64,000 bases of DNA. Source: Fibrobacteria bacterium (GTDB lineage Bacteria; Fibrobacterota; Fibrobacteria; UBA11236). Each line of letters begins with the position of its first letter. Positions within the stretch are counted from its first letter, which is position 1. The position numbers and the translations under genes are program-made. Below the pieces are notes generated by a model that made no database searches, was not told the DNA's origin, and worked only from the letters and a program-made list of their open reading frames with translations. Location of the stretch: positions 124,001 through 188,000 of the forward strand of contig JANYDA010000049.1 in NCBI GenBank assembly GCA_025360005.1, in the 5' to 3' direction. Positions 1-9,636 of this stretch are shown here, piece by piece.

Positions 1-569
1 CCTGCGTGGGCGGTGGAAGCAATGCCATGGGCATGTTCTACAACTTCCTGGACAAGCCTTCCGTGAAAATGATCGGCGTGGAAGCGGGCGGGCACGGCGT
101 GCTTACCGGCATGCACGCGGCGCGTTTCTCCGGCGGCACCCTGGGCGTTTTGCACGGGGCCAAGAGTTATGTCCTGCAGACGCCGCAAGGCCAGATCGCG
201 GAAACCCATTCCATCTCGGCCGGGCTGGATTATGCCAACGTGGGGCCGGAACACGCCATGTACCGCGATCTGGGACGCATCCGCTACACTTCCGCCACGG
301 ACGCGGAAGCCTTGGACGCGTTCGGCAAATTGAGCCGGTGGGAAGGCATTATCCCTGCGCTGGAAAGCGCGCATGCGGTAGCGGAGGCGTTACGGCTGGC
401 GCCTACGCTGCCCAAGGATGCGTTGCTGGTAGTCAACCTTTCCGGGCGCGGGGACAAGGATATGGCCACGGTATTGGCCGCCATGGAAGAAGTGAAGCGG
501 ACCTCGGCCCGGATGAGCGAAGGCGCCGGTAAAGCAGGCGAGAGCGTCCCGGAAATGCCGCGCGTATGA
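1..569 (+). CDS. trpB: Tryptophan synthase beta chain, 5'-truncated by the window edge
   Basis: Only the C-terminal ~188 residues are present; the frame is already open at base 3, so the start lies outside. The beta subunit condenses indole with serine using pyridoxal phosphate. The fragment opens with the Gly-rich phosphate-binding loop [10 protein letters not shown], which grips the PLP phosphate, and contains the family segments HSISAGLDY and VGPEHAMY, followed by the C-terminal block [13 protein letters not shown] and the [10 protein letters not shown] loop. These are strongly diagnostic of TrpB. Its stop overlaps the trpA start in an ATGA arrangement at 566-569, typical of translationally coupled trpBA, whose products form the alpha2beta2 complex that channels indole. 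The last ~25 residues after the GDKD loop look like a slightly extended tail. Confidence 0.97.
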
Positions 570-1378
570 GCAGCAACCGCATCGACTCCGCCTTCGCCAA
601 GCTTAAGCAGGCCAAGAAGAGAGCCTTTATCCCCTATCTCGCCGCAGGCGTGCCCGGCAGCGATGAAACCGTGGAAATCGTGCTGGAGCTGGAAAGGCTC
701 GGCGCCGACATCGTGGAGTTGGGATATCCTTTCTCGGATCCCATGGCAGACGGGGTAGTCAACCAAACCGCCGCCAACCGCGCCTTGGAACTGGGCGTGG
801 ACGCGGACGCGTATTTCGCCATGGTGGAGAAGATCCGCAAGCGCTCGCAAATCCCCCTCATCGTGTTCTCGTACCTGAATCCCATCTTCAAGCTGGGCTT
901 GGACGCCTTCGCCCGCCGCGCCAAGGCCGCCGGCATGGACGGGATGCTTTTGGTGGACATGCCGGTGGAGGAGTCGCTCGATCTGCAAGCCGTCTGCAAA
1001 CGGGAAAATCTTTCGCTCATCTTCCTGGTGGCGCCCACCACCACGGCGGAGCGCCTGGGGAAGGTGCTGGAAGGCGGCAGCGGATTCCTGTACTATATAT
1101 CCCGTACCGGGATCACCGGGGAGCAGAACAGTTTCCAAAAGGATTTCGCCGGCAAGGTGGCCGCCATCAAAAATGCCTCCAGCCTGCCCGTGGTGGTAGG
1201 GTTCGGCATTTCCACCCCGGACCATGTGCGCACGGTATGCGGCCTGGTGGACGGCGTTGTAGTGGGCAGCGCGCTGGTGCGCCGCACCCTGGAAAAGAAA
1301 CCCTTCGCGGAAATGCTCAAGGACATCACCGCCCTGGCCGCGCCCTTGATCGCGCCCACTAAGGAAGCATGGAACTGA
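566..1378 (+). CDS. trpA: Tryptophan synthase alpha chain
   Basis: 270 residues, normal for the family. The alpha subunit cleaves indole-3-glycerol phosphate to indole and glyceraldehyde 3-phosphate. Both acid/base residues are present: Glu51 in DIVELG and Asp62 in PMADG (Glu49 and Asp60 of the E. coli enzyme). The C-terminal phosphate-binding region [14 protein letters not shown] is also conserved. Two positions in the active-site loop are unusual: the family LGIPFSDP reads LGYPFSDP, and ADGPVIQ reads ADGVVNQ. The start is fixed by the ATGA overlap with trpB. The 3' end overlaps the chorismate mutase gene by 10 bases, so tryptophan and tyrosine/phenylalanine branch genes are expressed together. 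Confidence 0.97.
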
Positions 1379-1629
1379 GCGATTGGCGGGGCCGCATCGA
1401 CGCTCTCAACCAGCAATTGCTGGAATCGCTCAACGAGCGCGCCAAATGCGCGCAGGCCATCGCCGAACTCAAGAAGAAGAAGATGCTCCCCATCTTCGAT
1501 CCCCAACGCGAGAAACAGGTCTTCGACGCCGTGCTATCGCGCAACCAAGGCCCCCTCTCCGACGAAGCCGTCCGCCGCATCTTCGAGTGCATCATCGCCG
1601 AACACCGGCGCCTGGAGGAATCCACCTGA
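1369..1629 (+). CDS. Chorismate mutase, monofunctional AroQ type
   Basis: 86 residues, all-helical, matching the AroQ class that rearranges chorismate to prephenate, the first committed step toward phenylalanine and tyrosine. Typical features are the N-terminal RIDALNQQLLESLNERA helix with its Arg and Glu, the Lys-rich turn before FDPQREKQVF (family P.REKEVL) and the C-terminal helix RIFECIIAEHRRLE. An AAGGA Shine-Dalgarno lies just upstream (1361-1365). It overlaps trpA by 10 bases, and its TGA shares a base with the ATG of the next gene (TGATG), so it is translated in series with prephenate dehydrogenase. In many bacteria this domain is fused to PheA or TyrA; here it stands alone. Confidence 0.93.
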   Translation: MELSDWRGRIDALNQQLLESLNERAKCAQAIAELKKKKMLPIFDPQREKQVFDAVLSRNQGPLSDEAVRRIFECIIAEHRRLEEST

Positions 1630-2798
1630 TGGCTCGCTCCGGGGCTCCGGAGGCCAGTGGCTGGCGTCCCGAAAGCATCACCGTGGTAGGCCTGGGACTG
1701 TTGGGCGCATCGCTGGCGGAAGCGGTCCGCACGCGCTGGCCTTCCGTGCGCATCACCGCCGTATCCTCGGCGGCCACCCTGGAAAAGGCGCGCCGGGCCG
1801 GATTGGCGGACGTAACCTGCGAGTATCCCCGGATCGACGAGGCCCTGGCCGATGCGGATCTGGCGGTTCTGTGCACTCCCATCGGGCATATCAAAGCGAC
1901 CTTGGAAACCTGGGCCATGAAACCGCCCGTATGCAAGCCGGGCTGCATCATAACCGACGTGGGCAGCACCAAGGCGGAAATCTGCGCCCTTGGCCGCAGG
2001 GCTTTCCCCGCCCATCCTACCCATCCCGCCCATGCCCCGTATACCGGCGGCGCCGTTTTCATCGGCTCCCATCCCATGGCGGGAAGCGAAAAGACCGGCC
2101 TGGAAGCGCGCGATCCCCTTTTGTTCCAGAACGCTTCCTGGGTCATCTGCGCGGACGAAGGCCGTTCGGAAGCGGCCGATCGCCTGGAAGCCTTCGCGCA
2201 AGGGCTGGGCGCGCGCACTACGCGCATGCTGGCGGAGCTGCACGACAAGGTGGCCGCGCATGTTTCCCATCTGCCGCAACTGCTGAGCACGGCCCTGGCC
2301 AGCTATATCGGCGAACGCAAGACCGTGGTCGAGAATTGCCTGCAGATAGCGGGGGGCGGCTTCCGGGACATGACCCGCTTGGCGGCATCCTCCTTCTCCG
2401 TCTGGGAACCCATCCTGCGTTCCAACCTCCCCGCCGTGCGGGAGGTAACCGCGGGGTTTCGGGAGCACCTGTCGGCCCTGGAATCCGGGCTGGAGTGGGA
2501 TCTGGGCGCGGATTTCTTCCGCGAAGGCAATCGCTTGCGCTCGCAGCTTTCCACCGCCAAGAAAGGCTTCGCCGTCCCGCTTTCGGAGATCCTGGTGGAC
2601 CTGGAGGATAAGCCCGGTTCGCTGGTAAAGGCATTTGCCCCCTTGGCGGACGCGGGCCTCAACGTATTGGACGTGGAAATACTGAAAGTGCGCGAAGGCG
2701 AGGGCGGGGTTTTGATGATGGGATTCGGGAAAAGCGAAGAAGCGGCGAGAGCGATTGGTTGTTTGACCGCAACGGGTTTCAAGGCGAGGTTGAGGTAG
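1629..2798 (+). CDS. tyrA: Prephenate dehydrogenase with C-terminal ACT domain
   Basis: The frame is open from 1383, but the ATG at 1629 is chosen because it abuts the chorismate mutase stop (TGATG) and gives a 389-residue protein with a normal N-terminus. The enzyme oxidatively decarboxylates prephenate to 4-hydroxyphenylpyruvate with NAD(P). A Rossmann fold begins at ITVVGLGLLGASLAEA (GxGxxG), followed by VLCTPIG, DVGSTKAEI and GSHPMAGSEKTG, the classic prephenate-site segments. From about residue 320 an ACT domain follows (VPLSEILVDLEDKPGSLVKA), suggesting feedback control by an aromatic amino acid. A short Pro/His-rich insertion (HPTHPAHAPY) between the DVGSTK and GSHPMAG motifs is coded by a tandem-repeat-like stretch near 2020 and is probably a surface loop. 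Confidence 0.95.
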   Translation: MARSGAPEASGWRPESITVVGLGLLGASLAEAVRTRWPSVRITAVSSAATLEKARRAGLADVTCEYPRIDEALADADLAVLCTPIGHIKATLETWAMKPPVCKPGCIITDVGSTKAEICALGRRAFPAHPTHPAHAPYTGGAVFIGSHPMAGSEKTGLEARDPLLFQNASWVICADEGRSEAADRLEAFAQGLGARTTRMLAELHDKVAAHVSHLPQLLSTALASYIGERKTVVENCLQIAGGGFRDMTRLAASSFSVWEPILRSNLPAVREVTAGFREHLSALESGLEWDLGADFFREGNRLRSQLSTAKKGFAVPLSEILVDLEDKPGSLVKAFAPLADAGLNVLDVEILKVREGEGGVLMMGFGKSEEAARAIGCLTATGFKARLR

Positions 2799-2931
2799 AT
2801 ATGAATACGAAGAAGGTCCGGCATCCGGCGTCGGGCAAAATGCCCGGTCCCTGCACCCCGCAGCCAACCCGAATGCCTTTTCGCCATTGCTCTTTCCCGA
2901 TTCCCCTTCCTTCCTTTTCCCTTGCGCTCTG

Positions 2932-4374
2932 ATGGAGACTCTTTTGGAAAAGGAGACTCTTTTGGAAACCGCAGTCGAGATCAAGCGCAGCAAGCGCCTC
3001 AAGGGCCAACCGGTTTTACAGGGAGACGGCCTGACCGGCTTCCATGCCCTGTTGCTGGGCGCGCTGGCGGAGGGTCCCACCCGTTTGGAAAACCTTCCCG
3101 ATTCGCCCTGGTTCCGGGACATCCTGCAGGACTTCATCCGCATGGGCTATGCCCAGCAGGCCCTGGACGGGCATTGGACAATCCACGGGGGTAGCGCTCC
3201 GGTTTCGGGTGCGGAGCCCTTGCGCGTGCGCCACGAGGCGGAACTGCTCACCTTGGCCGGATTCCTGGCCGCCAAGGAATGCCGGCGCAAACTGGCCATC
3301 GATCCCGCCTGCGTATCGGGCGAAGCCATGGAATTGCTGGGCCGGATCCTGAAACTGGAAGGCGCGCCGGAACTGGTCGACCAGGACGTCATCCTGCTCT
3401 CCGCCCCTGCCGGATTGACTCCCAAGGCGGCGGCGCAATTGCGGCCGGCCGGTTCCGCATCCGCCGCCGCCAAGCCTTCCGATTTCGGTTGGGACGAATA
3501 CCAATCCAAGCTCGCCTTGCTTTCCTTCCACCTGGCTTCCGGCCGGGCCTTGGACTTGTCGCTTTCCAAGAGCGGCCCCGATTGGCTGGAAACCCTGGCG
3601 GCCCAATTCGGCGGGCCCATCCGCGTGGAGAAGAACGAAGCGCCCGAAGGCGATGAACTGGCGCGCCGGATAGCCCGGCAAATGCGGGCCGCGGGCAAGA
3701 CGGAAGCGCAGACGCGCATCCGCCTCTCCGCCGGCCCCAAACTCAAGGCGGTATCCTACACTATTCCCGCCGACATCACTTTGGCCTCGGCCTATTGCCT
3801 GGCGGCCACGCTCATCAAGGGATCCGATCTGACGCTGGAGAACGTGCCGCTCAATCCTTCGCGCGCGGGATTCATCTCGGCCCTGCGCCGCATGGGCGCG
3901 GACATCGAGGTGGTCAGCCGCCGTGAGAAGAACGGGGAAGGCCTGGGGCTTTTGCGCGTGCGCTCGGCGGACCTTTTCGGCAAACGCTTCGCCGCGGACA
4001 ATCACTCCGGCATGCGCGACGAGATCTTCCTATTGATGGTGGCCGCCGCCTTCGCGGAGGGCGAGACGGTGCTTCGCGACATCGCCTATCTGCGCAAGCA
4101 TGACGTGGATCTCCTGAAGGCCTTCACCTCCTCGCTCAAAGCCGCCGGTGTGGAGATAGGCGAGATCGAGGACGGCGTGGTGATCCGCGGCCGTCCCGAC
4201 TACGACGGCAGCGCCTACGATTGCATGGGCCATCCCGGCTTGGCGCTTGCCTGCCTGGTGATGGGCCTCAAGTCGCACGGCACTTCCACCTTGAAAGGCG
4301 CCTCCTGCCTGGACGGCCGGTATCCCGGCCTGATGGATCAGATGACGGCGTTGGGAACCGGAGACAAGCCATGA
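2932..4374 (+). CDS. EPSP synthase-like protein, apparently catalytically degenerate
   Basis: 480 residues from the ATG at 2932 (an upstream in-frame ATG at 2887 is possible). Position between tyrA and nadK and the repeated alpha/beta motifs (HALLLGALAEG, PADITLASAYCLAATLIKG, RAGFISALRRMGADIEV, RDEIFLLMVAAAFAEGETVLRDI, HPGLALACLVMGL) mark the EPSP synthase / enolpyruvyl transferase fold. However, the N-terminal PGSKSxSNR motif reads QGDGLTGFH (residues 30-38), so the PEP/shikimate-binding Lys becomes Gly33 and the Arg becomes His38. The GNAGTxxR loop is not recognisable, and the KETDR motif reads KHDVD (389-393), losing the Glu and Arg. The Asp of the DE motif (D363) and a Gln near EYQSK remain. 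It may be a pseudoenzyme or a heavily diverged aroA. Its stop overlaps the nadK start (ATGA). Confidence 0.75.
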   Translation: METLLEKETLLETAVEIKRSKRLKGQPVLQGDGLTGFHALLLGALAEGPTRLENLPDSPWFRDILQDFIRMGYAQQALDGHWTIHGGSAPVSGAEPLRVRHEAELLTLAGFLAAKECRRKLAIDPACVSGEAMELLGRILKLEGAPELVDQDVILLSAPAGLTPKAAAQLRPAGSASAAAKPSDFGWDEYQSKLALLSFHLASGRALDLSLSKSGPDWLETLAAQFGGPIRVEKNEAPEGDELARRIARQMRAAGKTEAQTRIRLSAGPKLKAVSYTIPADITLASAYCLAATLIKGSDLTLENVPLNPSRAGFISALRRMGADIEVVSRREKNGEGLGLLRVRSADLFGKRFAADNHSGMRDEIFLLMVAAAFAEGETVLRDIAYLRKHDVDLLKAFTSSLKAAGVEIGEIEDGVVIRGRPDYDGSAYDCMGHPGLALACLVMGLKSHGTSTLKGASCLDGRYPGLMDQMTALGTGDKP

Positions 4375-5342
4375 CGCGGAAAAAAACCGCCGGCCCGCAA
4401 GCGGATCCCATCTCGGCGCAAGACCCCCACATCACCTATCCGGAAAAGGACGTGCGCCATATCGGTGTGGTGGCCTTCGCGGGGAACATGGCTCCTGCCA
4501 TGGAAATCCTGCACCGCTTCGCGGCCGCGAATCCCGGCATCAAACTGTATCTCAACGCCTTCCTGAAGCCCTTCGCGCGCAAGGGAATAACGGTCAAGAC
4601 CGATGCCTTCCTCCGCACCAAGGCGGACCTGCTGCTTTCGCTGGGCGGGGACGGCACCTTCCTTTCCGTGGCCCGCATGGTGCGCGGCGCGGCCATCCCC
4701 ATCCTGGGCGTAAACCTTGGGCGGGTGGGTTTCCTGGCGGACGTGGCCCTGGGAAACCTGGAGCGCATCCTGGAGGAGATATTGCGGCGCGAATACAGCT
4801 ACCGCAAGCGCATGCTGCTTCACGTGGAGGTATTCAACGGTTCCAAACGCCTGCTGGAGGACATTTCCCTCAACGACGTGGCTTTCACGGGGCAGATGGG
4901 CCACCAGATGTTGGACCTGAGCGTAACGGCGCAGGGACGGTTCCTCACGGATTACTGGGTGGACGGCCTGCTGGTCTCCACGCCCACGGGATCCACCGCC
5001 TACGCGCTGTCCGCCGGAGGGCCCATCATCCATCCTTCCGCGGATTCCCTGTTGCTTACGCCCATGAATCCAACCTCGCTTTCCGTGCGGCCGCTGATCC
5101 TCCCGGACTATATGCGGGTGGGCGTGCGCAGCAACCTGGGACGTAACATGGAAGTCAACATGTTCGTGGACGGCCGCATCCAATTCAAGCTCAAGCCGGA
5201 GCACACCGTGTATATCCGCAAGCATAAGGACGGCGTGAGCCTGGTGCGCCCCAAGGGCGCATCCTATTTCGAATCCCTGCGTTCCAAGCTGGGCTGGACC
5301 GGCTCGCGCCGCTCGCGGGACGCCGCCGCGGAGGCCGCATGA
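4371..5342 (+). CDS. nadK: NAD kinase
   Basis: Phosphorylates NAD to NADP. The frame is open from 4221, but the ATG at 4371 is chosen from the 4-base ATGA overlap with the preceding gene, giving 323 residues. The diagnostic GGDGT nucleotide motif is at residues 92-96, followed by GVNLGRVGFLADV, an NDVAF segment (family NExxI/V) and the TPTGSTAYALSAGGPII block typical of NAD kinases. The C-terminal ~25 residues are basic then Ala-rich and look unstructured. It belongs to the trp-aro operon; 40 bases separate it from recN, leaving room for a ribosome binding site but no terminator. Confidence 0.96.
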   Translation: MTRKKTAGPQADPISAQDPHITYPEKDVRHIGVVAFAGNMAPAMEILHRFAAANPGIKLYLNAFLKPFARKGITVKTDAFLRTKADLLLSLGGDGTFLSVARMVRGAAIPILGVNLGRVGFLADVALGNLERILEEILRREYSYRKRMLLHVEVFNGSKRLLEDISLNDVAFTGQMGHQMLDLSVTAQGRFLTDYWVDGLLVSTPTGSTAYALSAGGPIIHPSADSLLLTPMNPTSLSVRPLILPDYMRVGVRSNLGRNMEVNMFVDGRIQFKLKPEHTVYIRKHKDGVSLVRPKGASYFESLRSKLGWTGSRRSRDAAAEAA

Positions 5343-5382
5343 AGCGGGAACGGAGGGAATATTCCCGCCCACGGAGGCAAGC

Positions 5383-7098
5383 ATGCTGCGTGAATTGAAG
5401 ATCCGCAACCTGGCCATCATCGAAAGCGCCGATCTGGAATGGGGCGCCGGCTTCACGGCCGTGACCGGCGAGACCGGCGCGGGCAAATCCATCCTGCTCA
5501 ACGCGCTCAAGTTCATCCTGGGCGCCAAGGTCAAGCCGGATCTCATCCGCCAGGGCGCGGACAAACTGAAGGTGGAAGCGGTTTTCGACATCCCCCCCGC
5601 CAAGGCCCTCAAGGCCGCATTGGCGCGTTTGGAGATCGACAGCGAGGGCGAAGACATCGTACTGGAACGCGAATTGACGCCTGCGGGCAAGAATCGCTGC
5701 CGCGTGAACGGATCGGGCGTGACCACCGCGGTCCTGGAAGAGATCGGCGCCCACCTGGTCGACCTGCACGGCCAGCACCATCAGCAATCGCTCCTCGATC
5801 CGGCCACTCATCTGGCCTTCCTGGACGGCTTCTCCAAGCTGGATGCCCAGGTCGAGGCGTATCACCGCGGTTACCGCGCATGGAAGGACATCGGCGATCG
5901 CCTGCGCGAGGCCGGCGACGGCGCGCGGCGCGTGCGCGAGCAATACGACTTTCTCAAGTTCCAGGCGAGGGAACTGGAGAAAGCTCCCCTGGCCGCGGGC
6001 GAGGAGGAGAGAATCGAATCCGAACTCAAGATGCGGAATTCCCTGGAACGGATCGGCGCCGGCCTACAATCCTCGCTGTCCATCCTGGAAGGCGAAGAGG
6101 GCGACGTGCTGGGCAAGGTGGTCCGGCTGCAAAAGGAACTGCTGGGCCTGGGGAAATTCCTGTCGCCCAATCCTTTCGAGGCCCACATGCAGCCGCTGGA
6201 GTCGGCGCGGGACGGCCTGGCCGATTTGCGTTCCGCCTTGCGGGCATACCGCCTGCCGCAAAGCGCGGACGCGGCGCGCCTGGACGAACTCAACGCCAGG
6301 CTGGCCTTGATCCAGAAGTTGAAGGCCAAGTACCATACCGATATGGCGGGTCTGGTGGAGTTGCGGGATCGCCGCAAACGGGAACTGGAAGGCTTCGAGA
6401 ATTCCGATGCCGATATCGACGGGCTCAAGGCCGGGCTCGCGGAAGCCTTTGTGCGCGCGCGCGCGCTTGCCGACGGGCTCAGCGGGCAACGGCACGACGC
6501 CAGCCGCGCCTTCGACATGAAGGTGAACAAGAACCTGCAGGGATTGGGGATGGAGGGCGCGCAATTCGAGACGCGCATCCGTTCGCTTGTCCCGGCCGGG
6601 GAGGCAGCGGGAGGGGAAGCCCGGGGTTCCGAGGATCCCGCGGGCCTCACCGCCACCGGCTACGACCAGGTGGAATATTTCCTGGCCGCCAATCCCGGCG
6701 AACCCGCCAGGCCCCTGCGGCAGATCGCCTCCGGCGGCGAAATCTCCCGCATCATGCTGGCCATCAAGTCCGCCCTGGCGGAAAGCGATCCCCGCCCCCT
6801 GCTGGTCTTCGACGAACTCGATACCGGTATCGGCGGGGTTACCGCCAACCGCGTGGGCGAATCCCTCAAGGAGCTGGCCGGCCACCACCAGCTTATCGTC
6901 ATCACCCATCTCCACCAGGTGGCGGCCCAGGCGGAACGCCAAAAGAAGGTGATCAAGGAGCTGGAGGGCGGCCGCACGGTAACCCGGGTGATACCCCTTT
7001 CGGCCAAGGAGCGTGTGCAGGAACTGGCGCGCATGATGGGCGACGAAAGCTCCCAGGCCACCCTCAAGCACGCCCGGGAACTCCTGGCCCAGCCTTGA
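5383..7098 (+). CDS. recN: DNA repair protein RecN
   Basis: 571 residues, normal length. RecN is an SMC-like ATPase that acts early in double-strand break repair. Walker A is TGETGAGKS at about 28-36, followed by the RecN-specific HLVDLHGQHHQQSLLDP segment; a long charged helical (coiled-coil) middle spans about 160-400. The ABC signature is ASGGEISRIMLA and Walker B is LLVFDELDTGIGG near residue 473-485, then VITHLHQVAAQA, all as in RecN. A GGAGGCA Shine-Dalgarno precedes the ATG at 5383. It is the last gene of the operon that starts upstream of the window; nadK-recN adjacency is common in bacteria. Confidence 0.97.
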   Translation: MLRELKIRNLAIIESADLEWGAGFTAVTGETGAGKSILLNALKFILGAKVKPDLIRQGADKLKVEAVFDIPPAKALKAALARLEIDSEGEDIVLERELTPAGKNRCRVNGSGVTTAVLEEIGAHLVDLHGQHHQQSLLDPATHLAFLDGFSKLDAQVEAYHRGYRAWKDIGDRLREAGDGARRVREQYDFLKFQARELEKAPLAAGEEERIESELKMRNSLERIGAGLQSSLSILEGEEGDVLGKVVRLQKELLGLGKFLSPNPFEAHMQPLESARDGLADLRSALRAYRLPQSADAARLDELNARLALIQKLKAKYHTDMAGLVELRDRRKRELEGFENSDADIDGLKAGLAEAFVRARALADGLSGQRHDASRAFDMKVNKNLQGLGMEGAQFETRIRSLVPAGEAAGGEARGSEDPAGLTATGYDQVEYFLAANPGEPARPLRQIASGGEISRIMLAIKSALAESDPRPLLVFDELDTGIGGVTANRVGESLKELAGHHQLIVITHLHQVAAQAERQKKVIKELEGGRTVTRVIPLSAKERVQELARMMGDESSQATLKHARELLAQP

Positions 7099-7356
7099 AC
7101 CCATCCCGCCGGCGTGGCCGTGGGCGGATTGCTGTTGGCGATTTCCGGGGCTTCCCAAGCCTACGCGGCGTTCCGCGATTCCGTGCCGCGCTCCAGACGG
7201 AGGATGGGAAAATAAGGATTCCCGACATCGGATGAATCCAGCGGGGATTCCCACCATCTGCGAAGCGAACCGGAGCGCCCGCTTTCCGTTTCGACTTGCC
7301 ATTCTGAAAGGCTCGGCCGATGGTCCGGCCATGAGAAAATCCTATACTTATGAAAC

Positions 7357-8571
7357 ATGGTCGACAAATCCGCCCGGACGGCCACAGCCGCCCCGGTACC
7401 TCCGGAAAGCCTGGAGCCTAAGCGTATCGCCGGTCGCGTCTGGGTCCTCACCAAGATGGGAACCTTCGTCGCTACCCTGGTGTGCCTCTTCCTGGACCGC
7501 CCTTTATGGGCCACCCTCTTCCTGTCGGCCTCCCTGATTATGGGTTTCTGGGCCTCCTTCAAGCTGGAGCACGAGGATATCGAACGGCCCATCGCGCTTT
7601 TCTGGCTGGAGCTGGGGGAAAAGCTGCTGGGCAATCTCATCTTCCTGGTGTTGTTCCTGCGCCTGCTTTGGGATCCCAACGAGCCTTTCCCCACCATGCT
7701 CTGCGGAGGCCTGGTCACGCTCACCCTGCGTAACATCTTCTACCTGATCTTCTCCATCGCCCTGCTCAAAGACCACCGCGAATTGCCGCTCAAGACCATC
7801 TGGGGCAAGATCACCACCTTGTCGCTGAACGTGACCATGATGCTGTACGTGTGGAACTCGGAGCATTATTCGCGCATCATGATGGTGGCGAGCATCCTCA
7901 TGATCATCGCCACCAGCATCGGCTACCTCTATTTCTATTACCGGGACGAGAAATCGCGCAACCCCGTGGGCCTGGCCACCCAGGTCACCTTCAGCCGCAT
8001 CCTGCTCTCCCCCGTATTCATCTGGGTCTTCTTCTACGACAACAACCTGGTGTACCAGGACAACCACCTGATATTCAAGATCCTGGCCGCCCTGCTCGCC
8101 ATCTTTTTCGTAGCCAGCGACGGGCTGGACGGCTACCTGGCGCGCAAACGGGGTGAGGTGAGCCAGCTGGGCAAATACCTCGATCCCTATTCGGACAAGA
8201 TCTCCAACATGGGCATCTTCCTGTGCTTCCTTGCCTCCGGCTACGCGGCCGTATGGATGGTGGCCATCATCTTCTTCCGGGAATCCACGGTAGAGACATT
8301 GCGCACCCTGGCCGCCGCCTCCGGCGTGACCATCGACGCGCGCCCCAGCGGGAAATGGAAAACCGCCTTGCAGGGAACCGCCATCATCACCATCCTGGTG
8401 CTGGAAATCGCGGACACGCTGCTCCGCCGCTATGCTCCGCACGTGCCCTATTGGCCGGACATCTGGGCCTATATCCCCTACACCCTGATGACCTTCGTGA
8501 CTTTATTCACCCTGGCCTCCGGCGTGGACTATTTCGTGGCGAATAAGAAAGTCCTGACGAAATATTTCTGA
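7357..8571 (+). CDS. CDP-alcohol phosphatidyltransferase with extended N-terminal membrane region
   Basis: 404 residues, about twice the usual length of PgsA-type enzymes. The C-terminal half carries the full catalytic motif of the family, D-x2-DG-x2-AR-x8-G-x3-D-x3-D: Asp255, Asp258, Ala262-Arg263, Gly272, Asp276 and Asp280. The reaction is transfer of a phosphatidyl group from CDP-diacylglycerol to an alcohol; glycerol 3-phosphate (PgsA) is the best guess but the acceptor cannot be read from sequence. The N-terminal ~200 residues hold about five hydrophobic segments (for example VATLVCLFLDRPLWATLFLS) not part of the core fold. A TATACT hexamer at 7343-7348 is 8 bases from the ATG, so if it is a -10 box the transcript would be almost leaderless. 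It converges with the next gene. Confidence 0.85.
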   Translation: MVDKSARTATAAPVPPESLEPKRIAGRVWVLTKMGTFVATLVCLFLDRPLWATLFLSASLIMGFWASFKLEHEDIERPIALFWLELGEKLLGNLIFLVLFLRLLWDPNEPFPTMLCGGLVTLTLRNIFYLIFSIALLKDHRELPLKTIWGKITTLSLNVTMMLYVWNSEHYSRIMMVASILMIIATSIGYLYFYYRDEKSRNPVGLATQVTFSRILLSPVFIWVFFYDNNLVYQDNHLIFKILAALLAIFFVASDGLDGYLARKRGEVSQLGKYLDPYSDKISNMGIFLCFLASGYAAVWMVAIIFFRESTVETLRTLAAASGVTIDARPSGKWKTALQGTAIITILVLEIADTLLRRYAPHVPYWPDIWAYIPYTLMTFVTLFTLASGVDYFVANKKVLTKYF

Positions 8572-8576
8572 AGCCG

Positions 8577-9398
8577 TCAGAATCCTATACCGGCGGTGGC
8601 CTTTAGCTGTCCCGCCCCTTGATCCGCCGTGTTCAACATATAGGTCAAAGCCAGCATAGGCTGGATCCGGGATCCCGTTTTCGGGGCCAGGGAAAGCGTT
8701 ACGGGAATGGTCGTGTGATTCGCCCCCAACACCGAGTAGTGGCTGAAAGCATAGCGGGCCATGGAAAGGCCGATGCGGATCTTGTTGCAGGCGAGATAAC
8801 CGGCGTGGATGGCCAGCGATGGCATGAAGATGTTTTCCATCCGCATCAGAGTGTCGCTTCCCGTATACTTGGTCTCGTACTCCCCCGAATCGTACAGGTA
8901 ATTGTCGACGATGGCGCGACTGAGCACATCCAATTGGGACAGGCCCATTCCCGCCCTTATATCCCACGGCCCCATTTTCATCCGGCCCCACAGCGTCCCT
9001 TCCACGCGGTGGTAGACTTCGCCATCGATGCCGGATAGCTCGGCGCAAAGGTTGGCGGCGAACCATTTTGAAAAAAAGGTGAGGTAGGCCCCGGAGGACA
9101 AATCCTCGAAGCGGATGCGCATATTGTCCGGAGCCTCGGGTATAGAGCGGGCCCCATCGCCTCCGGAACCGCTTTCAGCGGAAGTGCCCTTCGCAACGGG
9201 ACCGCGATTGCGGCTGATAGCGCCGCCGAATTTCCAGCCCAAAGAATCCTCAGCCGTGCTCATCAGGAGAGACGGCGAAGGATAGCTCAGCTCGATGGCT
9301 TTTACGCGGTGGGTCACCTCGGATGCGCAACCGATGCATAGCAAGGCGATGGGCGCGGCAAATAGACAGAGTGGAAAAGCGGAGGTAAAACGCAACAT
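8577..9398 (-). CDS. Putative lipoprotein with beta-barrel-like C-terminal half
   Basis: 273 residues, family not recognised. The N-terminus is a signal peptide with a lipobox (ALLCIGCAS; modified Cys near residue 24), so export and lipidation are likely. The C-terminal half alternates hydrophobic and polar residues in strand-length pieces and ends in phenylalanine (TAGIGF), as outer-membrane barrel proteins do. A lipid anchor plus a terminal barrel signature is an unusual combination; it could be a surface protein of a barrel-containing complex. It stands alone, converging with the phosphatidyltransferase gene and divergent from the TIGR02147 gene across an AT-rich gap. No clear ribosome binding site is visible. 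Confidence 0.75.
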   Translation of the reverse strand: MLRFTSAFPLCLFAAPIALLCIGCASEVTHRVKAIELSYPSPSLLMSTAEDSLGWKFGGAISRNRGPVAKGTSAESGSGGDGARSIPEAPDNMRIRFEDLSSGAYLTFFSKWFAANLCAELSGIDGEVYHRVEGTLWGRMKMGPWDIRAGMGLSQLDVLSRAIVDNYLYDSGEYETKYTGSDTLMRMENIFMPSLAIHAGYLACNKIRIGLSMARYAFSHYSVLGANHTTIPVTLSLAPKTGSRIQPMLALTYMLNTADQGAGQLKATAGIGF

Positions 9399-9636
9399 GG
9401 CAGTTCGACGTTCACTTAGGATAAAAGGTTACGTTATCAATACAGAACAAATTGGTGAAGAATACAAAGCCCTGGCTGTCGATAAAATGGCTTGAATTCG
9501 ATTTTTAGAGGTTTTTATCTACATATTATCCCAAAATACTTAATCAGAAAAAATTATACCGTTATCCAGTTTTGATGATTTGATTGACTTTTCCCGCAGA
9601 TGGGGGCATCTTTATGGGAAAGGAAAGCGCCTACCC
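9399..9636. promoter_or_regulatory. AT-rich divergent intergenic region with CGTTATC words
   Basis: This 238-base gap between a leftward lipoprotein gene and the rightward TIGR02147 gene is far more AT-rich than its neighbours, as expected of divergent promoters. It contains the heptamer CGTTATC at 9432-9438 and 9560-9566, the same word found three times in the gap at 11975-12300 before the second lipoprotein gene. No promoter hexamers with good spacing could be assigned with confidence. A GGAAAGGAAAG stretch at 9618-9628 is the probable Shine-Dalgarno of the regulator gene. Confidence 0.4.

Follow-up and report, generated by a model that had tools for sequence, protein, structure and literature searches.

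A putative pseudoenzyme descended from class II EPSP synthase is retained in the aromatic operon of Fibrobacterota

The class II EPSP synthases (EPSPSs), which include the CP4 type and the AroA half of TyrA-AroA fusions (NCBIfam family NF011381), are by profile and by tree the closest relatives of a protein, here designated AroX, that is encoded beside tyrA in Fibrobacterota. AroX occupies the same place by tyrA as the AroA part of those fusions and the class II aroA of Thermovirga, but it is without the catalytic residues, carries an insert of approximately 20 amino acids with an invariant Arg, and has a fast-evolving domain A. HisZ, a paralogue of histidyl-tRNA synthetase, is itself catalytically inactive and serves to activate HisG (PMC10998830). 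The likeness to AroX lies in the role in an amino acid pathway that is proposed for AroX; however, the folds are unrelated, and binding and activation have been demonstrated for HisZ, whereas for AroX the evidence is operon linkage. The fungal repressors QutR and GaaX derive from the AROM protein of the shikimate pathway, and their catalytic function is thought to be lost, as stated in two reports (PMC10512348, PMC6528562). Like AroX as proposed here, they are shikimate pathway enzymes repurposed as regulators, but they stem from kinase, dehydratase, and dehydrogenase domains rather than from EPSPS, are eukaryotic, and have a known partner. In the open-access literature, we found no description of AroX or of an EPSPS-derived pseudoenzyme. 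PMC3937554 was rejected as a precedent for an aroA paralogue because aroA there denotes DAHP synthase. AroX would be an inactive paralogue maintained within a biosynthetic operon, a kind of protein already known, and the family models file it as an EPSP synthase.

The window is a stretch of 64,000 nucleotides from a Fibrobacteria bacterium (contig JANYDA010000049.1). An earlier note on this DNA had placed an EPSP synthase-fold open reading frame (ORF) at 2932-4374 between tyrA and nadK. This was borne out, with tyrA upstream and nadK downstream in the order trpB-trpA-CM-tyrA-AroX-nadK-recN, where CM is chorismate mutase. The features are as follows.

6-569: trpB, with which a run of trp genes enters the window
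566-1378, + strand: trpA, last gene of the trp run (ORF list; same gene order in relatives)
1369-1629, + strand: AroQ-type CM (ORF list; 88 bits to PF01817 in genome G000)
1629-2798, + strand: tyrA, prephenate dehydrogenase (ORF list; homologue census)
2932-4374, + strand: AroX, putatively a catalytically degenerate, class II-derived EPSP synthase paralogue of 480 amino acids (profiles, alignment, tree)
3019-3045, + strand: QGDGLTGFH, AroX residues 30-38, in place of PG[SD]KSxSxR, with loss of E. coli K22, S23, and R27 (alignment)
3637-3711, + strand: basic insert specific to AroX, residues 236-260, absent from catalytic EPSPSs (alignment, dN/dS)
4096-4113, + strand: KHDVDL, AroX residues 389-394, in place of xKExDR, with loss of K340, E341, and R344 (alignment)
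4231-4239, + strand: HPG, AroX residues 434-436, in place of DHR, with loss of H385 and R386 (alignment)
4371-5342, + strand: nadK, whose start codon overlaps the AroX stop
5383-7098, + strand: recN, flanking gene (ORF list; loci of relatives)

The start of AroX was taken as the ATG at 2932, and an alternative open TTG lies at 2887. AroX and nadK overlap by 4 bases (ATGA). The gap between tyrA and AroX in the window is at least 88 bases, compared to a few bases in most other loci. The tyrA product presumably ends in an ACT-like C-terminal stretch. A scan of positions 1-9500 for promoters and terminators yielded no excess over shuffled sequences.

The genome (G000, 98% complete) encodes three PF00275 proteins: a class I AroA, MurA, and AroX. 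The canonical aroA that the earlier note had proposed looking for elsewhere is thus present, on another contig (L001, contig C41), with PGSKSISNR, GNSGTSMR, KETDR, and DHR all intact. This class I enzyme, which belongs to the same superfamily as AroX and is expected to carry out the EPSPS reaction, matched AroX in the genome search only locally (28 bits). Because an intact class I aroA and murA are found elsewhere in the genome, AroX is an extra paralogue rather than the EPSPS of the cell, and it is almost certainly not an EPSPS at all. The catalytic AroA itself varies in the phylum: it is of the class I PGSKS type in the class to which the window belongs (L001, L037-L044) and of the P[PAS]SKSHTIRA type outside that class (L077-L099). 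The active AroA seems to have been replaced within the phylum while AroX persisted.

AroX scored 99.1 bits against the Pfam EPSP synthase model PF00275 (cutoff, 22.8), which makes it a member of the superfamily, and PF00275 was matched by 33/33 aligned AroX sequences (E ≤ 0.01). Against the NCBIfam aroA equivalog TIGR01356 the score was 128.8 bits, below the functional AroA threshold of 287. With the Pfam score above and the NCBIfam aroA score far below the cutoff, AroX is homologous beyond doubt yet not at the level of a functional AroA. The match to the MurA model TIGR01072 was 31.3 bits, compared to a cutoff of 393.

The alignment bore out most of what had been read from the letters: QGDGLTGFH stands where class I and class II enzymes carry PG[SD]KSxSxR, no GN[AS]GT-like stretch is present in AroX, and the counterparts of Lys22, Arg27, Glu341, and Arg344 are all substituted (G33, H38, D391, and L394). 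The reading of KETDR as KHDVD was correct in that the motif is replaced, but its register was off by one residue: K340-E-T/S-D-R344 aligns with H390-D391-V392-D393-L394. Glu341, the acid/base residue of the E. coli enzyme according to PMC7144000, is therefore Asp in AroX. Arg124, His385, and Arg386 are also substituted in the window AroX, so that K22, S23, R27, R124, K340, E341, R344, H385, and R386 have become G, L, H, G, H, D, L, P, and G, respectively. Gln171 and Asp313 are retained.

Thirty-three AroX sequences, hand-picked from the 155 found for a spread of genera across the phylum (alignment A3), were compared with 37 catalytic EPSPSs: 10 of class I, 20 of the SKSHTIRA type from other Fibrobacterota, and 7 of class II. 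Three Fibrobacterota sequences were left out, L088 for a long N-terminal overhang and L080 and L081 for KECDR in place of KETDR, the latter two being otherwise intact. Among the catalytic enzymes 18 polar columns were invariant, although invariance of KE[ST]DR and DHR was built in for the 28/37 sequences that had been chosen for those motifs, and these columns are independent in the other 9 rows (E. coli, the AroA of the same genome, and the 7 class II sequences). Only D242 was broadly kept in AroX (32/33). D343 was kept in 20/33 and D313 in 12/33; Q171 and S244 were kept in 4/33 each, and the remaining 13 polar columns in 0 to 3. We take K22, S23, R27, R124, D313, K340, E341, R344, H385, and R386 (E. 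coli numbers) to form the phosphoenolpyruvate (PEP) and shikimate-3-phosphate (S3P) site. R344 was found in 3/33 AroX sequences, E341 in 2/33, K22 and S23 in 1/33 each, and R124, K340, H385, R386, and R27 in none; of these ten residues the window AroX retains D313 alone. D242 (AroX D281), present in all EPSPSs aligned, is taken as a structural residue. As the losses are common to 33 AroX proteins from across the phylum, the alignment indicates that loss of the active site is more than a chance event.

The AroX sequences formed one clade (33/33) in FastTree phylogenies of 201 and 410 columns, with local support of 0.98 for domain B and 1.0 for both domains. This clade was sister to class II EPSPS, represented by a small set (n = 7), rather than to either catalytic AroA type of the phylum (class I or SKSHTIRA). 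The profile scores of AroX from the class of the window ranked in the same way: 388 against class II, 341 against other AroX, 221 against the SKSHTIRA type, and 180 against class I. The score against MurA, which was part of the profile comparison only, was 56, from a profile built on one sequence. The higher score to class II than to other AroX fits with the long branch of the latter. The best NCBIfam match was the TyrA-AroA fusion family (NF011381), which all 33 AroX proteins matched, and living class II genes occur in similar company, with an aroA adjoining tyrA on a Thermovirga plasmid and a tyrA-aroA fusion on a Pseudomonas plasmid. The tree, the shared position, and the shared insert point to a common origin of AroX, and on these sequence comparisons AroX is placed by descent in the class II EPSPS clade.

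Of 167 Fibrobacterota genomes searched with the profile built from the 33 AroX sequences (A3), 155 had a match with an E value of 5e-70 or better; in the other 12 the best E value was 2.5e-26 or weaker, or there was no match. An earlier profile, made from 23 sequences of the class of the window, had given strong matches in 122/126 genomes of that class. Seven of the 12 genomes without AroX are less than 90% complete (G102, G106, G118, G122, G126, G128, and G149), and in four of these (G102, G106, G118, and G122) a missing contig is likely because no TyrA match was found there either. The other five (G151-G155, of which G152 is 69% complete) make up family f8. Among genomes with completeness of ≥90% and contamination of ≤5%, AroX was found in 85/89, and the 4 misses were all in f8. 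The matches are open frames, with a minority of the matches listed containing one stop; in the two cases in which the DNA was inspected (G021 and L064), the stop lies just 5' of the start codon. A scan of viral contigs found no relatives of AroX, and in the plasmid records (25/37 inspected) and phage records (10/10 inspected) that were matched, the annotated genes were ordinary aroA or tyrA-aroA.

A short turn of the catalytic EPSPSs (near residue 210 in E. coli) is lengthened in AroX by approximately 20 residues, in which an ELxRR- or PIxRR-like core precedes a basic stretch; this insert is present in 33/33 sequences. The Arg/Lys-rich stretch reads RRIARQMRAAGK in the window and RRMRFLQQKRK in L109. 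R246, the second Arg of the pair, is the sole polar residue invariant in 33/33 AroX proteins, and at 90% conservation the only polar columns are R246 and D281. Conservation is lowest in domain A, where most of the missing cleft motifs would lie: no column there reaches 90%, compared to eight in domain B. An AlphaFold2 model (window with L034-L036) had a mean pLDDT of 46 and a pTM of 0.26, too low for surface mapping or a meaningful fold comparison, with a low-confidence hint of a helix at 238-253 in the insert.

Domain A also varies in extent. Part of it is deleted in the AroX of genus g11 (L055, 367 amino acids), in which the insert and domain B are kept. AroX of genus g1 (L045, L046, L047, and L034-L036) has a long Ala/Pro/Glu-rich expansion near window residues 150-175, giving proteins of approximately 558-617 amino acids versus 480 for the window copy, which is almost without the expansion.

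Purifying selection on AroX was similar to that on its neighbors. Across six genus pairs (Nei-Gojobori), dN/dS was 0.11-0.25 for AroX, 0.14-0.26 for tyrA, and 0.14-0.22 for nadK, and in Fibrobacter-type AroX it was 0.04-0.24 (ten sequences; the 32/45 pairs that were >70% identical); many dS values exceed 1, so these ratios are rough, and no pair approaches 1. Within AroX, in three pairs that include the window, the ratio was lowest in the insert (0.02-0.07), compared to 0.10-0.17 in domain B and 0.15-0.23 in domain A.

The neighborhood was compared in 36 AroX loci. nadK is downstream in 34/36 (exceptions L051 and L115), tyrA upstream in 33/36 (exceptions L107, L131, and L132), and a CM gene is within 33/36 (exceptions L112-L114). 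In the three loci without tyrA, AroX is placed after CM; at L132 the contig ends and CM is a fragment. In the class of the window and in L107, CM is of the short AroQ type, and the remaining loci have a type of approximately 250 amino acids. The PF01817 match of the long CM was weak or none (L108-L111, L115, L116, L131-L134, and L136). Three genomes (G147, G161, and G166) have AroX without an adjacent tyrA and no TyrA match anywhere. One of them, G166, reported as 100% complete, has CM-AroX-nadK (L107) and no TyrA match at E ≤ 1e-5.

Family f8 has the reverse arrangement. TyrA was found in 4/5 of its genomes (none in G152). In two loci (L127 and L128) tyrA directly precedes nadK and AroX is absent; in L129, tyrA is present but AroX and nadK were not found, and L130 ends just past tyrA. 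A midpoint-rooted tree of NadK, RecN, and TyrA placed f8 within the phylum next to AroX-bearing families, so that by parsimony f8 lost AroX. As f8 keeps TyrA with AroX gone, TyrA appears to work without AroX. TyrA as an obligate partner is weakened both by f8 and by the three genomes with AroX and no adjacent tyrA, and rates of AroX and tyrA evolution gave no TyrA-specific signal (partial r of -0.04, with nadK and recN controlled; 16 genomes). CM is also absent beside tyrA in the f8 loci, but long-type CM is encoded elsewhere in 4/5 f8 genomes (G151, G152, G154, and G155, not G153), so the operon was scattered, and nothing specific about CM as an obligate partner follows from the co-absence. 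The operon position of AroX, taken alone, could be inherited from an ancestral map.

Lost catalytic residues, purifying selection, and an active paralogue elsewhere make the assignment of AroX as a pseudoenzyme well supported, as far as comparison of sequences can carry it. The earlier note had also offered a strongly diverged, glyphosate-insensitive EPSPS, whose equivalent residues would come from elsewhere in the protein, and the near full-length match to the class II profile and the retention of D313 in the window AroX and in 12/33 sequences are compatible with such an enzyme. This proposal did not hold up: the window AroX is without K22, R27, R124, K340, E341, R344, H385, and R386, domain A offers no conserved set of Lys or Arg replacements, and a complete AroA is present in the genome, so that an active EPSPS is scarcely credible. 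A decaying relic that is held by its place in a translationally coupled operon is also highly improbable. The clean loss of AroX from two f8 loci, with tyrA and nadK spared, and the fast evolution of domain A are what a relic might show; however, dN/dS was 0.04-0.25 in all computed pairs, as for tyrA and nadK, the frames are open, and the gene persists in nearly all of the good genomes.

AroX is most likely kept for a noncatalytic job. Because catalysis appears lost, constraint is like that of tyrA, translation is coupled with that of aromatic genes, and the insert is constrained, AroX most likely acts by binding a partner or ligand rather than by making a product. What is bound divides the remaining readings. 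An enzyme for a different substrate, which the earlier note had raised, is kept here as part of a wider alternative, a neofunctionalized small-molecule binder or enzyme with a new ligand site formed by the insert and domain B. Among sequences from the class of the window, R246, D281, R311, R320, E378, and R419 are invariant in 23/23, and the mean frequency of the top residue in domain B is as high in AroX of that class as in catalytic EPSPS (0.54 versus 0.53). Across the 33 AroX proteins, however, only R246 and D281 survive among polar columns at 90%, D281 corresponds to the D242 that all catalytic EPSPSs retain as well, and domain A is without any such column and is partly deleted in g11; we consider a new ligand site unlikely, though it keeps some weight. 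Binding of nucleic acid by the insert, with AroX as an autoregulator acting on the mRNA or DNA of its own operon, would suit a stretch that is rich in Arg and Lys across the phylum and is the most constrained part of the protein. Basic helices serve in protein binding too, though, and no nucleic acid-binding domain was detected apart from a marginal HTH_33 match in 1/33 sequences (E value, 0.006), which leaves autoregulation improbable. Of the regulatory pseudoenzyme that had been suggested from the letters, the pseudoenzyme half is upheld by the canonical aroA elsewhere, the family-wide loss of the site, and purifying selection, and the regulatory half is an interpretation.

The interpretation that we favor is a noncatalytic subunit. 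The aromatic operon of ancestral Fibrobacterota, CM-tyrA-aroA-nadK, would have carried a class II EPSP synthase. An aroA elsewhere in the genome may then have taken over the reaction and made the operon copy redundant, and the sites for PEP and S3P would have been lost from this copy in a single event. The copy would have acquired a short basic, probably helical insert, after which purifying selection kept it. As a subunit or adaptor, AroX may use the Arg-rich insert together with its conserved second domain to bind CM and/or TyrA, and once bound it could tune one or both enzymes in the way that HisZ acts on HisG. Loss of the site, a single origin by class II EPSPS, retention across the phylum, operon linkage, selection, and the insert were observed; from these we infer the order of events, binding as the function, and the choice of partner enzyme. 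The complete sequence, ending in a dead class II aroA retained as a subunit that tunes the CM/TyrA branch, is offered as a tentative model whose chances fall somewhat short of even. A broader claim, that AroX is a phylum-wide, EPSPS-derived regulatory subunit of this branch which possibly touches NadK as well and predates the split of the Fibrobacterota classes, is possible but rather doubtful; the same doubt applies to the part of it in which the dead fold and its Arg insert would serve as a protein-binding module.

Since Pfam labels AroX an EPSP synthase, counts of aroA or predictions of glyphosate sensitivity that rely solely on family hits would be wrong for Fibrobacterota. The insert, being conserved, and f8, in which the gene was lost naturally, offer direct handles for probing the role of AroX. 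If a role is shown, AroX would be a bacterial shikimate pathway enzyme turned noncatalytic, in parallel with HisZ and the fungal AROM-derived repressors.
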